From: an uncultured Litoreibacter sp. | Lineage (GTDB): Bacteria > Pseudomonadota > Alphaproteobacteria > Rhodobacterales > Rhodobacteraceae | Direction: 5' to 3' | Assembly: GCA_947501685.1 (NCBI GenBank) | Contig: CANMWQ010000003.1 | Coordinates: 496,001 to 560,000, forward strand | DNA: 64,000 bases | Shown: in pieces, positions 7,720 through 61,686 of the stretch | Numbering within the stretch: the first letter of the stretch is position 1 | Layout: every line of letters begins with the position of its first letter | Notes under the pieces: generated by a model | What the model was told of the DNA's origin: nothing | Databases searched by the model: none | The model's input: only the letters and a program-made list of their open reading frames with translations | Made by a program: the position numbers and the translations under genes

Positions 7720-7863
7720 CGAAGCAGACCTTGATCAAGGCCACAGCATCCGTTGCAGTGGGCTCAAACCAGCCATCCGCCCCACCTCTCGCCAATAGCC
7801 CTTCTCGACCTGCCCCAACTTATCCACAGCCTGTGGATAAACCCGCCTTCTGTTAACGAAATA

Positions 7864-7917
7864 TTTTGGTACAAAATGGGTTATGGGCCCAAAAGGTTTG
7901 CCCCATTTTGTACAAAA
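7864..7917 (-). repeat. Palindromic repeat, family 1, copy 1
   Basis: Read on the minus strand: TTTTGTACAAAATGGG, 21-base spacer, CCCATTTTGTACCAAAA. The arms are inverted repeats, each with the 12-base palindrome TTTTGTACAAAA (one arm has an extra G). It sits about ten bases after the opgH stop. A second copy with the same 21-base spacer is at 47595-47651, also just after a stop and in the same orientation relative to the gene. Confidence 0.8.
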
Positions 7918-7927
7918 CGGCCCAAAC

Positions 7928-9793
7928 CTACTCAGCAGGGATGCGATCTGCCTCGTCCAGCGCCCGGCGCAACCTGAGCCGCTCAAGCTTCGCCGCCTGA
8001 ATAATCGACGGCGCGTTGAACACCTCCGCCGTTCCCATTTGCCGCCGTGTCCATTCAAAGCGGGTCAGCTTAGCCCCTGATATATATGACAAAAACACCG
8101 CGCCCAGCAGGCTGACAGCAATCGGCGACAGCCACAAAGTTATGATCCCCTCATACATCCCGAAGACCAAAGCCGCGCCCAAAACGGTCTCTGCGGCGTG
8201 GAATTTGATGTGGTCCCAAACCGAATACCGCGCCCCATGCCGCACTTGCGGCACCCATTTTTCCTTGAATCCCAAGTAGGTACGCGCCACAGCTAATGTT
8301 TGCTGAACCATTAAGATAGGCGCAAACAGCACCGAGACGATGATCTCCGTCACGAAGCTGAAGACGAACTGCACCGGACCCCCGAGGTCTCGCAAGCTAA
8401 CCCCCGTCCGCCCAATCGCCGTCGCCCCAAGGAATTTTGGAGCCAGTAACATACCGTACATAAAGAATAAAATGAAAAGGTTGTTCACATGGCCAATCTC
8501 CGGCCAGTCCACCTGAGGGTTGTCCCCAGTGAAGTAGGTGATCACATTTTCCTCTGCGCTGACCCCGATAATAGCCCAGACTGCCAGCAGGATAAACCAC
8601 GCCGGAGACAGCAGATAGGACATCGCGCCGTGGAACAAATGGAAGCGGGTGACAGAGTGAAAACCTTTTGATCCCAATATGTTAAGGTGTTGCAGATTGC
8701 CCTGACACCAGCGGCGGTCGCGGCGCACATAGTCGATCAAATTGGCAGGCACCTCTTCATAGCTGCCCTTGATGCGCGGCAAGAAGCGCACAGCCCACCC
8801 CGCCCGGCGCAACAACCCTGCCTCGACAAAGTCATGACTCAAGATCAGCGCCCCCTTAGAGCGGAACGTATCAAGCTTCGGCAACCCCGCCGACGCCGCA
8901 AACGCCGCCGTCCGGATGATCGCGTTATGGCCCCAGTAATTGCCTTCCCGATCGGCCCATTTGGCCAGTCCTTCGGCCAAAACTGCGCCGTAAACCGTGT
9001 TCGAAAACTGCTGCACGCGGCCAAATAATGTATCTGCACCAAAGAGTTGCGGGACGGATTGGATCAAACCGGCACTGGGATCAGCAGACATCTCGTCGGT
9101 CAGCGCAATGATGGCCTCGCCCGACATCAGACTGTCGGCATCAAGCACCAGCATGGCGTCATACCCGCCGCCCCAGTGCTCCACCCAATCGGCCAGATTG
9201 CCGACTTTGCGGTCCGTGTTCTCTGCCCTGCGGCGGTAATAGACCTGCATGCGTCCGTCCATCCGGCTGCGCAGCTCTGCGAAGGCCTGGCATTCCTTGG
9301 CCGCGATCAAGTCGTCGCGTGTATCAGACAGAATAAAAAGTGTAAAATCATGAGGATGCGGGGCGTTTTTTAACTGATCCAGCATCGCGGTTGCGTTGCC
9401 GAACACTTCCACCGGGTCCTCATTATAGACCGGGACCAGCAGTGCGGTTTTCAGCGGGGTCACGTCCAAGACCGCCCGTGGCGCATCGGGGCGCAGCAGG
9501 TTCAGGATGCCCGCCGTCACGGTTGAGACCGACAGCGAAATCCAGAAAAATGTCAATGCAATCAGGGCGATAAGACCCATCTCGAACCAGGTCAGCCCGT
9601 CCATGGAGAAGAAATCCGTGAACACCATAATCAGCCCGAGCGTCGTCAAAATGGCAGGCACGAAGACCAGCCCGCGCCACCAGGACACGCCGCTTGTGGG
9701 CCGGAAATCGGGGGCCTGAGTGTCGTGATAATCGCGGTGCAAATCCTGCTTTGGATGCGCAAGCGGTTGATTTGGCGGCATAAACTGCGTCAT
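7928..9793 (-). CDS. opgH: Glucans biosynthesis glucosyltransferase OpgH (MdoH)
   Basis: 621 residues from the ATG at 9793, which forms ATGA with the opgG stop and has AGGTGG upstream; the track start at 9814 is seven codons longer. It is an inner-membrane family 2 glycosyltransferase: two N-terminal helices (about 30-100), the catalytic domain with LVPVYNEDP, LVLDADSLMSG and the RRWCQGN motif, then several C-terminal helices. It polymerises beta-1,2 glucan from UDP-glucose while passing it into the periplasm. Last gene of the opgC-opgG-opgH operon. Confidence 0.95.
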   Translation of the reverse strand: MTQFMPPNQPLAHPKQDLHRDYHDTQAPDFRPTSGVSWWRGLVFVPAILTTLGLIMVFTDFFSMDGLTWFEMGLIALIALTFFWISLSVSTVTAGILNLLRPDAPRAVLDVTPLKTALLVPVYNEDPVEVFGNATAMLDQLKNAPHPHDFTLFILSDTRDDLIAAKECQAFAELRSRMDGRMQVYYRRRAENTDRKVGNLADWVEHWGGGYDAMLVLDADSLMSGEAIIALTDEMSADPSAGLIQSVPQLFGADTLFGRVQQFSNTVYGAVLAEGLAKWADREGNYWGHNAIIRTAAFAASAGLPKLDTFRSKGALILSHDFVEAGLLRRAGWAVRFLPRIKGSYEEVPANLIDYVRRDRRWCQGNLQHLNILGSKGFHSVTRFHLFHGAMSYLLSPAWFILLAVWAIIGVSAEENVITYFTGDNPQVDWPEIGHVNNLFILFFMYGMLLAPKFLGATAIGRTGVSLRDLGGPVQFVFSFVTEIIVSVLFAPILMVQQTLAVARTYLGFKEKWVPQVRHGARYSVWDHIKFHAAETVLGAALVFGMYEGIITLWLSPIAVSLLGAVFLSYISGAKLTRFEWTRRQMGTAEVFNAPSIIQAAKLERLRLRRALDEADRIPAE

Positions 9794-11319
9794 GCCGTCC
9801 ACCTGTAGAGCCATACTTCAGTCAGCGATACGCCGTTCTTGACCAATTGCACGCGCAGCTCAGCGCCCTTGGCCTCTCCGGGGTCGAACTTGAAGGCCAG
9901 CCGCAGCCCGCCTGTGCCGGGATTGCGTTGCAGCACCCCGTCCGTCACCGTGCCGCGGTTGCTTGAGATGAACCGTGTGATCGTATCGAGATCGGCATCG
10001 GCGCCAAACTCAGGATGATCGTCAAAATCGACCGCGATGATCTGGTAAGGCACCTTCTTGTCGAAGCCCTTGCCGATCCGCGAGTTGAGCACTTTGGCCA
10101 CGTCACGCGGCCGCACAGGTTCGCCACCCCATTGCATTGTGTAATTGAAATCATAGGCTTGGCCCGGTTGCAGCGGCTCGCGCGGGCGCCAATAGGCGAC
10201 GATATTGTCGTAGATTTCCTTCTCGGACGGGATCTCCACCAGCGTCACCGCGCCCTTGCCCCAATCCTCGGAAGGCACAATCCAAAGCGATGGGCGGTTG
10301 TGGTAGAAGGCTTCGAGGTCCGCGAAATCCTCCGCCTCGCGGGCGCGCTGCATCAGGCCAAAGCCGCGTGGCCCGTCATCGACAAAGCTCGAAATCTCCA
10401 GCTCGCGCGGGTTGGCCAGAGGCCGCCATAGCAGCTCTCCTGCGCCGTTCCAGACCAGCAGCCCCTCGCTGTCATGCACCGCAGAGCGGAAATCGTCGAA
10501 ACGAGTTCGGTTGGTCTCGTCGAAAAGAAACATCGAGGTCAGGGGCGCGACGCCCACGTGATCCAGTTCCTTGCGGGCGAAAAGCGTCGCTTTGACTTTC
10601 ATCTCGGCGGGCAATCCGGGTGTGATATCAAAGGTATAGGCCCCGGTGACGGAAGGGCTGTCGAGGATCGCGTGGACCCGCGTCATGCGGGCTCCGGGCT
10701 CAGGGGCTTCGACGAAGAAATGGGTGAATTCTGGGAATTCCTCCCCCGCCGCGTCGCCGGTGTTCAGCGACAGCCCGCGCGCCGACAGGCCGTAATTCTG
10801 GCCCGTGCCGATTGCCCGGAAATAGCTGGCGCCCTGAAAGACGAGGAACTCTTCAAAAATGCCCGGTGTCTTCAGCTCGGCCCGCAAGCGGAAGCCGGAA
10901 TAGCCCATCGTGTCGTCAATGGGGAGGTCTGGAAACTGGTCGGTTCTGTCAAAGAGCGAGATGTCAAACGCCAGCGTTTGCGAGATGTCGCCGTCGACAA
11001 TATTGATCTCCACGGGGCGCGGGAAATAGAGGCCGGGGTGGAAAAAATCCATATGGAACGGGCGCTTGGTGTCGGACCAGAGCGCTTTTTGCGCGTTGAA
11101 CCAGATGGAGCGGTATTGGTCGTAATCGAGATCCCGCCACCCGGCAGGCACCTGCGCCATCGGGGTGTAGGCCTGCGTGGCCATCTTTTGTGCACGGGCC
11201 ACAAGCAGCTCGCGCGAGAAGGGCTGCGGCGTGCCTTTGAACATCGGCAACGCCTCCGCCCTGCCCGCAACGGCGGCGGCCCCCAGCATAGCCAGAAATG
11301 AGCGGCGCGACAGCGTCAT
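9790..11319 (-). CDS. opgG: Periplasmic glucan biosynthesis protein OpgG/OpgD
   Basis: 509 residues from the ATG at 11319 with a twin-arginine leader (LSRRSFLAMLGAAAVAG); the ORF track start adds 19 codons. The mature protein has the MdoG beta-sandwich fold (FDISLFDRTDQFPDLP..., ending VQLVKNGVSLTEVWLYRW). OpgG-family proteins are needed for glucan release and branching in the periplasm. A Tat leader is more typical of OpgD in enterobacteria, but the gene neighbours point to the main OpgG role. It overlaps opgC by ATGA upstream and opgH by ATGA downstream. Confidence 0.93.
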   Translation of the reverse strand: MTLSRRSFLAMLGAAAVAGRAEALPMFKGTPQPFSRELLVARAQKMATQAYTPMAQVPAGWRDLDYDQYRSIWFNAQKALWSDTKRPFHMDFFHPGLYFPRPVEINIVDGDISQTLAFDISLFDRTDQFPDLPIDDTMGYSGFRLRAELKTPGIFEEFLVFQGASYFRAIGTGQNYGLSARGLSLNTGDAAGEEFPEFTHFFVEAPEPGARMTRVHAILDSPSVTGAYTFDITPGLPAEMKVKATLFARKELDHVGVAPLTSMFLFDETNRTRFDDFRSAVHDSEGLLVWNGAGELLWRPLANPRELEISSFVDDGPRGFGLMQRAREAEDFADLEAFYHNRPSLWIVPSEDWGKGAVTLVEIPSEKEIYDNIVAYWRPREPLQPGQAYDFNYTMQWGGEPVRPRDVAKVLNSRIGKGFDKKVPYQIIAVDFDDHPEFGADADLDTITRFISSNRGTVTDGVLQRNPGTGGLRLAFKFDPGEAKGAELRVQLVKNGVSLTEVWLYRWTA

Positions 11320-45590: not shown

Positions 45591-46613
45591 ATGGCCTCCA
45601 GCAAAGTCACCGCGCATGACGTGGCGCAGGCGGCGGGGGTGTCGCAGCCGACCGTCAGCCGGGTGTTCACGCCGGGGGTGACGGTTTCTGCGGCTTTGGA
45701 AAAGCGTGTGCGGGAGGCCGCCAAAACGCTCGGCTACCGGCCCAACACGCTGGCGCGCTCGCTGATCACGGGGCAGTCGATGACCATCGGGCTGATCGTC
45801 GCCTATCTGGACAATCCGTTCTACACCGAGGCGCTGGAAAAGCTCAGCCACACGCTGCGCGAGCGCGGCTATAACATCATGATTTTCATGGCCGCCAACC
45901 ATGCCAGCGACGTGGATCAGGTGGTGCATGATCTCTTGGATCATCAGGTGGACGGGATCATTCTGGCCTCAGTTGCCGCGTCGTCTGCGCTGACGGACCG
46001 GCTGCGCGACGAGGGCGTGCCGCTGATCTTGTTCAACCGGGGCCATAGCGATCGCTCCATCAGCGCGGTCACGTCCGCCAATTTCGAGGGCGGGCAGAAA
46101 GTGGCGGAGTTCCTGCTGTCGGGCGGGCATCAGCGGATTGCGCATATTTCGGGCTGGCAAGGGGCTTTGACCGGGGCGGATCGTTGCGCGGGGTTTCTGG
46201 CAGGGCTTGAGACGCAGGGGGCGGAGGCGGTCTCGGTCACCGACGGGCTGTTCTCCCGCGAGACGGCGGCGGCGGCCACGCGCGCGCTGTTTGCCAGCAG
46301 CCTGAACCCGGATGCGATCTTCGTGGGCAATGACCATATGGCCTTCGCCGTGATCGACGTGCTGCGCAGCGAGCTGCGGCTGGAGCCGGGCTGCGATGTC
46401 TCCGTGGTGGGCTATGATGACGTGGCCATGGCCAGCTGGCCCAGCTACAACCTGACCACCGTGCGCCAACCCGCCAACCGCATGGTGCAGGCCGTGGTGA
46501 CCCAGCTTCTGGGCCAGATCGAGGGCTCTGAGCCGGTCGCAAAACACATTGAAATCGACGGCCCCCTGATTGTCCGGGGGTCGGCCAGAATACCGCAAGG
46601 ATGGACCAGATGA
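45591..46613 (+). CDS. LacI family transcriptional regulator
   Basis: 340 residues. N-terminal helix-turn-helix VTAHDVAQAAGVSQPTVSRVF, hinge region, then a periplasmic-binding-protein-like effector domain (MTIGLIVAYLDNPFY ... VVGYDDVAMASWPSYNLTTVRQP). It starts three bases after the dehydrogenase stop, so it is co-transcribed and probably autoregulated through the palindrome at 44190. Confidence 0.94.
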   Translation: MASSKVTAHDVAQAAGVSQPTVSRVFTPGVTVSAALEKRVREAAKTLGYRPNTLARSLITGQSMTIGLIVAYLDNPFYTEALEKLSHTLRERGYNIMIFMAANHASDVDQVVHDLLDHQVDGIILASVAASSALTDRLRDEGVPLILFNRGHSDRSISAVTSANFEGGQKVAEFLLSGGHQRIAHISGWQGALTGADRCAGFLAGLETQGAEAVSVTDGLFSRETAAAATRALFASSLNPDAIFVGNDHMAFAVIDVLRSELRLEPGCDVSVVGYDDVAMASWPSYNLTTVRQPANRMVQAVVTQLLGQIEGSEPVAKHIEIDGPLIVRGSARIPQGWTR

Positions 46614-47578
46614 GAGGCTTTTCGAACCAGTTTGAGGACCTGCCCGACTATATTCTGAAGATCACCAGAGAGATCTGGGAAGGCCGCGGGCTGGCCACAT
46701 TGCATGAGTATTACGCCAAGGATTTGCCGATGCGCTTCCCCTCCGGGCTGGTGACGGGCAATGAGGCGGTGATCAACGGGACCATGGCCACGCTTGCCGA
46801 GTTTCCGGACCGTGAATTGCTGGGCGAGGACGTGATCTGGTCCGGTGACGAGGATGCGGGGTTTTTATCCTCGCACCGCATCCTGACCACTGGCACGCAT
46901 CTGGGCCATGGCGGGTTTGGCAAGCCCACGGGCAAACGGTTTGTGATCCGCGCGTTGGCCGATTGTGCGGCGCGCAACAACACGATTGATGATGAATGGC
47001 TGATCCGTGACGTCTCAGGGATTGTGATCCAGCTGGGCAAGGACGTGAAGACATTCACCCGCAAGATGATCGCGCGCGAAGGCGGCGTGGAGCATGCGAC
47101 GCGGCCCTTCACCCCCGATCAGGACGTCCAAGGCCCCTACACGGCGCGCGGCAATGACAATGAATGGGGCCAGCGTTTGGGCGACATCCTGACCCGCATC
47201 ATGGAGAAGGATTTCGCGGTGATCCCGGCGGAATATGATCGGGCGTGCCACATCCATCATCCGGGCGCGCGGGAGACGATCTCGCATGAGGGGGCGGACC
47301 GGGCGTGGCTGCCATTGCGGTCCTCCTTCCCCTCCGCCACGTTCGAGATTCACCACCAGATTGGCCGCGAGGATCCGATGATGAGCCCGCGTGCGGCGAT
47401 CCGCTGGTCCCTGACGGGCAAGCATGATGGCTACGGGCTGTTTGGGACCCCCACCGGCGCGGAAGTGCATGTGATGGGCATTACCCATGCAGAGTTCGGC
47501 CCGTGGGGGCTGCGCCATGAGTTTACGCTGTTTGACGAGGTCTCGATCTGGAAACAGATCATGATGCATCAGGGCTGA
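46610..47578 (+). CDS. SnoaL-like ester cyclase/NTF2-fold protein
   Basis: 322 residues. The start at 46610 makes ATGA with the LacI stop and has AAGGA eight bases upstream; an in-frame ATG at 46601 is possible. Two SnoaL-like halves are suggested by WEGRGLATLHEYYAKDLPMRFPSG near the N-terminus and GYGLFGTPTGAEVHVMG near the C-terminus. Such folds act as cyclases or small-molecule isomerases. The likely substrate is the product or precursor of the HisD-like dehydrogenase. Confidence 0.75.
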   Translation: MRGFSNQFEDLPDYILKITREIWEGRGLATLHEYYAKDLPMRFPSGLVTGNEAVINGTMATLAEFPDRELLGEDVIWSGDEDAGFLSSHRILTTGTHLGHGGFGKPTGKRFVIRALADCAARNNTIDDEWLIRDVSGIVIQLGKDVKTFTRKMIAREGGVEHATRPFTPDQDVQGPYTARGNDNEWGQRLGDILTRIMEKDFAVIPAEYDRACHIHHPGARETISHEGADRAWLPLRSSFPSATFEIHHQIGREDPMMSPRAAIRWSLTGKHDGYGLFGTPTGAEVHVMGITHAEFGPWGLRHEFTLFDEVSIWKQIMMHQG

Positions 47579-47594: not shown

Positions 47595-47651
47595 AGTTTT
47601 GTACAAAATGGGGCAAAACCAAACGGCGCAAAACCCATTTTGTACAAAACT
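47595..47651 (+). repeat. Palindromic repeat, family 1, copy 2
   Basis: AGTTTTGTACAAAATGGG and CCCATTTTGTACAAAACT are perfect 18-base inverted arms around a 21-base spacer (GCAAAACCAAACGGCGCAAAA). The element follows the SnoaL gene stop by 16 bases. See copy 1 at 7864. Confidence 0.85.
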
Positions 47652-47844
47652 CAGCGAGGCAGATTTTAGGGTTTGCTTAAGACCCCCCCTGCCCCGCCGC
47701 CCCCAAGATGGAGACTTGCCCGGCCCCCGCCCCGCGCCCTAGGATGAGCCATTGTCATGGAGCGCGATTTATTTGAGCGACGATTTTGAAGAGCTGTTTT
47801 TCTGAGTAAATTGCCTCCGGTTTTTTGAGTGGAGGGAGATTTTC

Positions 47845-51690: not shown

Positions 51691-51786
51691 ATCATTGCTT
51701 CAAAAATACTCCCGCCGGAGGCTCCTCCATTTGCAACGGGCGCGCGGTTTGAGGGGGAGGAATTTGAGTATTTTTGAAGCAGTGAT
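51691..51786. repeat. Large palindromic element, repeat family 2
   Basis: Arms ATCATTGCTTCAAAAATACTC (51691-51711) and GAGTATTTTTGAAGCAGTGAT (51766-51786) pair in 20 of 21 positions around a 54-base loop that contains CCGCCGGAGG. Lies between the ATPase and permease genes. Related sequence at 61657-61686. Confidence 0.8.
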
Positions 51787-61607: not shown

Positions 61608-61656
61608 TTTTAGGCGGTTTGTGAAGTTTGAAGGGCCTGTACGCTTTGCGAGTGTG

Positions 61657-61686
61657 GGAGCCTCCGGCGGGGATATTTTGAAACAT
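61657..61686 (-). repeat. Repeat family 2, partial copy
   Basis: Read on the minus strand it gives ATGTTTCAAAATATCCCCGCCGGAGGCTCCC, close to TTCAAAAATACTCCCGCCGGAGGCTCC at 51700-51725. Lies between preT and the MBL-fold gene. Confidence 0.65.

Follow-up and report, generated by a model that had tools for sequence, protein, structure and literature searches.

The usual explanation for REP and REPIN elements is a RAYT transposase resident in the genome. REPINs are REP doublets that form hairpins (Bertels and Rainey 2011, PMC3116915), and the CGTC-tagged REPs of alphaproteobacteria have no dedicated transposase (PMC3733652). MITEs, for example ERIC and NEMIS, are short, have terminal inverted repeats, and show insertion polymorphism (described in PMC3116915). 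Here we describe a family of palindromic repeats from Litoreibacter that shares features with each of these systems.

Like REPINs (PMC3116915), the Litoreibacter family has two conserved inverted 16-mers, a less conserved spacer, and extragenic dispersal, and it is miniature and non-autonomous. But the distance from the start of one 16-mer to the start of the other is 37 bp, versus 71 in REPINs (PMC3116915), and there are about 43 copies instead of hundreds. REPINs also have neither the asymmetric TTAACC/TTGGTAA block of our family nor its switching between arm classes. The GTAG tag of REPINs is absent from the consensus and from the conserved flanking positions. RAYT (Y1_Tnp, PF01797) was not found in the genome that holds our locus (G000, 98.99% complete) or in 12 congeners, while the control genomes were detected. 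The family is REPIN-like in how it works, and is not a REPIN by membership.

Like the CGTC REPs (PMC3733652), the elements are palindromic, intergenic, and alphaproteobacterial, lie mainly between co-directional and convergent genes, and have no dedicated transposase. However, their consensus has no CGTC tag, they are longer (55-90 bp instead of 20-40 bp), and they are built from two arms. With MITEs, they share short length, terminal inverted repeats, and empty sites in relatives; no clear target duplication was seen at the junctions compared. No parent insertion sequence with the same ends was found among the arm matches in G000, which form paired copies. (This is a draft assembly, and IS-rich gaps may be missing from it.)

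A Roseicyclus genome (G041; L132, L340-L359) has a dispersed repeat, TGACCAAATGGAC-GCA-TTTTTCGCGAAAA, with 33 matches versus 3 for the control, and this repeat is also found right after opgH. It resembles the Litoreibacter family in being dispersed and in having palindromic arms around a TTTT..AAAA centre, but its letters are different and we saw no TTAACC block. It is an analogous family, with a likeness in build. Rfam has no relevant entry, a plasmid collection had no match to the element, and the open-access literature on Roseobacter or Litoreibacter repeats has no description of this palindromic family. Four matches in viral contigs were set aside as chance matches in AT-rich DNA, as each involves a single arm.

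Two copies in the window and the anatomy of the family

The window is a stretch of 64,000 nucleotides from an uncultured Litoreibacter. A preliminary description reported two copies of a palindromic repeat in it, with a spacer of 21 bases in each. We found both, at 7864-7917 and 47595-47651, with that spacer length. The 18-nt arms of copy 2 are perfect (AGTTTTGTACAAAATGGG, 47595-47612, and CCCATTTTGTACAAAACT, 47634-47651), while the arms of copy 1 are imperfect, with an extra G in the plus-strand left arm (TTTTGGTACAAAATGGG, 7864-7880). Each arm had also been described as a palindrome in itself, which is true of the inner 12-mer (TTTTGTACAAAA) but not of the whole 16-mer. The features around the two copies are:

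7820..7840, no strand: inverted pair of DnaA-box-like 9-mers, TTATCCACAGCCTGTGGATAA, beside copy 1
7850..7863, minus strand: 3' extension of copy 1, which holds GTTAAC (7852-7857), the element's TTAAC block, with the minus-strand reading AAAATATTTCGTTAACAG; common to L110 and L112
7864..7917, minus strand: core of copy 1, with arms 7864-7880 and 7902-7917 and spacer 7881-7901; class A (GTAC); profile match of 75 bits (C3:503849-503924)
7928..9802, minus strand: opgH-type glucosyltransferase gene, with its stop codon 10 nt from copy 1
46601..47578, plus strand: SnoaL-type gene, with its stop 18 nt before copy 2
47595..47651, plus strand: core of copy 2, with arms 47595-47612 and 47634-47651 and spacer 47613-47633; class A
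47664..47682, plus strand: TTAG-N7-TTAA block downstream of copy 2, TTTTAGGGTTTGCTTAAGA

The window has 6 arm matches with up to three mismatches, versus 0.3 expected. The DnaA-box-like inverted pair also lies behind L112, a paralogous copy of the element, and another species, G018, has it at the orthologous site (L224). Another inverted pair, of type AAAATACTCCCGCCGGAGGCTCC, occurs at 51703-51736 and 61646-61679 of the window; it is 82% complementary and unrelated to the element. A sequence resembling it follows opgH in L. arenae (L134).

Across the 3.32 Mb of G000, with two mismatches allowed, the arms match 45 times, versus once for the reversed control, and a profile search puts the family at about 43 dispersed copies. 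The DNA itself was read in stretches surrounding the copies. The aligned copies give the unit TTTTGTACAAAATGGGG CAAAACTTTTcGGGCC AAAACCC ATTTTGTACAAAA. The element is asymmetric, with two 16-nt arms and a 21-nt spacer in the short form (about 55 bp); the long form (85-90 bp) continues for about 12 nt to the TTAACC/TTGGTAA block. The arms are much better conserved than the spacer. In G018, conservation continues for about 32 nt on the right-hand side, which holds GATTTnTTAACCnnTTGGTAA. TTAAC is 5-fold enriched near the elements, at 12.5 per kb compared with 2.5 per kb elsewhere in the intergenic DNA of these loci, and part of the copies have the spacing TTAA-N7-[TG]TAA. The TTAACC block is missing from many short copies, such as the G018 copy between recO and its convergent neighbour.

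There are two classes of arms, GTAC (class A) and GGGAC/GTCCC, and the second class is built on TTTTGGGACATTTTGGG / CCCAAAATGTCCCAAAA. Mixed copies occur, with a left arm of class A and a right arm of class B. The arms of one element are mostly of the same class, so there is some degree of coupling between them.

Shared positions and concerted change across species

As judged by opgH, the nearest named relatives of this genome are Litoreibacter species. Within the genus, the family is present in G000, G005, G006, G017, G018, G019, and G020; no other congener that we tested gave a match. The genomes that have it correspond to one clade of the genus, apart from G013 (82% complete), which had no match; G019 is outside the tree. 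The family as such was not found in 396 further genera of Rhodobacteraceae that were sampled, with at most 4 arm matches per genome, versus 35 in G000.

Empty sites in congeners place the insertions exactly at gene junctions, either between convergent stops or at TAATG stop/start overlaps. Between glpX and recJ, most congeners have a TAATG overlap, and in G000, G018, G006, G017, and G020, the element sits exactly between the stop codon and the ATG. The leuC-leuD junction is also a TAATG overlap in most congeners. There, the element again sits exactly between the two codons in G000, G018, and G017 (L298, L299, and L301), and G006 and G020 are empty (L303 and L305). This pattern does not follow the species tree, which is likely due to regional transfer. 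At the convergent junction beside recO, G018 has TGA-GGG-[53 bp]-CTATTC and G006 has GGCTAG-GT-CTATTC, and the site is empty in G005, G013, G016, G017, and G020 as well. (The gene names recJ, leuD, recO, and glpX rest on sequence recognition, and the G018 element at the counterpart of L087 was established by protein search.) None of the filled and empty junctions that we compared has a clear target duplication, with the closest empty site coming from a different species. These real empty sites back the suggestion, made from the window alone, that the repeat is a small element.

At the SnoaL-type gene, the element is present in G019 and absent from G018, G005, G006, G013, and G020; the DNA downstream of the gene in G018 differs from that in G000. 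G017 has a separate copy that lies farther downstream.

Most elements have counterparts in other species. As judged by flanking proteins, and with G017 and G006 sampled in part, 32 of 37 elements in G018, 16 of 22 in G017, and 6 of 8 in G006 lie beside the same genes as an element in G000. The similarity of the cores is 0.786 for orthologous elements versus 0.746 for non-orthologous elements from different genomes, and reaches 0.843 within G018. For the flanks, the corresponding values are 0.75 (orthologous) and 0.55 (non-orthologous). The arm class differs in 14 of 34 orthologous pairs between G000 and G018 and in 4 of 6 between G000 and G006, where the label is the best score from a sequence-only profile that splits the family into two overlapping classes, and single cases may be wrong. 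So, the positions of the elements are orthologous between species, and their sequences evolve in concert within each genome.

Placement and orientation relative to genes

Of the copies in G000, 23 have co-directional neighbours, 11 are between convergent genes, and 3 are between divergent genes; another 5 overlap reading frames. A stop codon is within 35 nt for 20 of the 42 copies. (Genes were called by a codon-usage script made for this analysis, and the assignment of gene ends may err in single cases.) A dispersed element that favours gene ends, as had been proposed, fits these counts well. Copies are also found within likely operons (leuC-leuD and cobH-cobL), and start codons adjoin almost exclusively the element's left end. 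At L093, L230, and L274, in three species, the downstream start codon lies inside the element's arm (AAAATGTACAAAAC or AAAATGTCCC), and it has been kept despite a class switch.

Both window copies have the same orientation relative to the upstream gene (opgH or the SnoaL-type gene), which the preliminary description took as a sign of a selected role at mRNA ends or of a small element with a target preference there. The genome-wide tally did turn up many further copies near stop codons, but it contradicts a fixed orientation: where elements of G000 abut stops, 10 have the same orientation and 15 the reverse. Between co-directional genes, the ratio of same to reverse orientation, relative to transcription, is 1:21 in G018 (p = 1e-5), 6:16 in G000, and 4:8 in G017. 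Because this bias runs against transcription, the window copies belong to the minority type.

Origin and role of the elements

With moderate confidence, we favour a REPIN-like family of small, non-autonomous palindromic insertions that has no RAYT in G000 or the 12 congeners searched and has been vertically retained and homogenised. The empty sites show that, in ancestors of a single Litoreibacter subclade, the elements inserted into tight junctions (convergent stops or overlapping stop and start codons), and the shared flanking genes show that the copies have since been inherited in place. The copies within each genome would repeatedly overwrite one another by recombination, gene conversion, or re-insertion, which would make the whole set drift or switch class together. 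Each arm is most likely recognised as DNA, by a transposase, a recombinase, or a binding protein, rather than as an RNA stem. Against this reading, we saw neither a transposition intermediate nor a target duplication, and no mobiliser turned up. The class coupling between the two arms of an element also counts against it. As the family has empty sites, keeps orthologous positions, and switches class across whole genomes with no RAYT found, its copies must be mobilised or homogenised in some other way. Also, the strong orientation bias between co-directional genes and the long retention of positions suggest a selected function, which a purely selfish element would not need. Since filled and empty junctions are available from closely related species, the uniformity of short bacterial repeats is directly testable here.

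A selected function might be the whole story. The elements could be intergenic signals, which a nucleoid protein or transcription factor recognises and which keep adjacent genes apart or control them, possibly with the TTAA-N7-TAA block as a CtrA-like site. A change in the protein's specificity would drag all of the sites along, and concerted evolution would then need no copying. Orthologous positions, the 21:1 orientation bias in tandem pairs of G018, the left-end preference of start codons, arms that are far better conserved than the spacer, the enrichment of TTAAC, and the absence of RNA-type covariation all fit with this. But the genes beside the elements (recJ, leuD, cob genes, recO, and opgH) are housekeeping genes with no relation to one another, G000 has two quite different arm classes side by side, the TTAACC block is missing from many short copies, some copies are inside reading frames, and close congeners have the same genes without the family. 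We consider this account possible but clearly less likely than insertion. RNA hairpins could act at mRNA ends as bidirectional terminators or 3' stabilisers. A role at mRNA ends was part of the preliminary description, and the preference for gene ends (stop codons nearby, 11 copies between convergent genes) is the part of that proposal that stands. Also, folding is better than for shuffled sequence in 74-93% of the copies of G000, G017, and G018. However, about a quarter of the G000 copies have no significant fold, and several copies cannot fold at all (such as L106). When the arms of G000 elements were permuted among elements within a class, the number of mismatches between arms was 3.05, versus 3.25 observed. 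As mismatches are no lower than after permutation, we see no compensation between arms and no selection for base pairing. The consensus fold is weak, with zero covarying pairs. The hallmarks of a bidirectional intrinsic terminator, a stem rich in G+C and a U run behind it, were seen neither at copy 1, where no U-tract terminator-like site was found, nor in the folds examined. The hairpin role is further weakened by copies that lie within likely operons or directly before start codons, and by the copies between tandem genes, which mostly read against transcription. Overall, RNA hairpins seem improbable.

We think it very improbable that the elements are dead relics of a single old burst of insertion, drifting neutrally. 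We found no mobiliser, and the positions are mostly common to G000 and G018, as such relics would have. But neutral copies should match their orthologues better than their paralogues, and this is true of the flanks and not of the cores. Furthermore, copy 1 and L112 agree at 87% over about 101 bp, which indicates a later duplication. Returning to the insertion family, a more speculative extension, which we put forward tentatively, is a junction-targeting palindromic system whose non-RAYT mobiliser reads the arms as DNA. A lineage-specific arm alphabet would sweep through all copies, gene blocks would land in or be exchanged at the copies, and similar systems with other letters might exist across the Rhodobacteraceae, for example in Roseicyclus.

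Two gene blocks in G000 suggest that such repeats shape gene content, with copies perhaps serving as homology for the gain or loss of the blocks. Recombination between copies would be the simplest account of both. A 6.4-kb block (C1:380962 to 387375) lies between direct copies that share 121 bp at 88%, and G018 has one copy there. An 8.8-kb block lies between direct copies at C7:103460 and C7:112245 (L386, C7:102000-114000). At its junction, G018 lacks the block and carries a single copy, and six other congeners are bare. As judged from their sequences, the genes in this block include a sulfoquinovose-synthase-like gene and likely polysaccharide genes.
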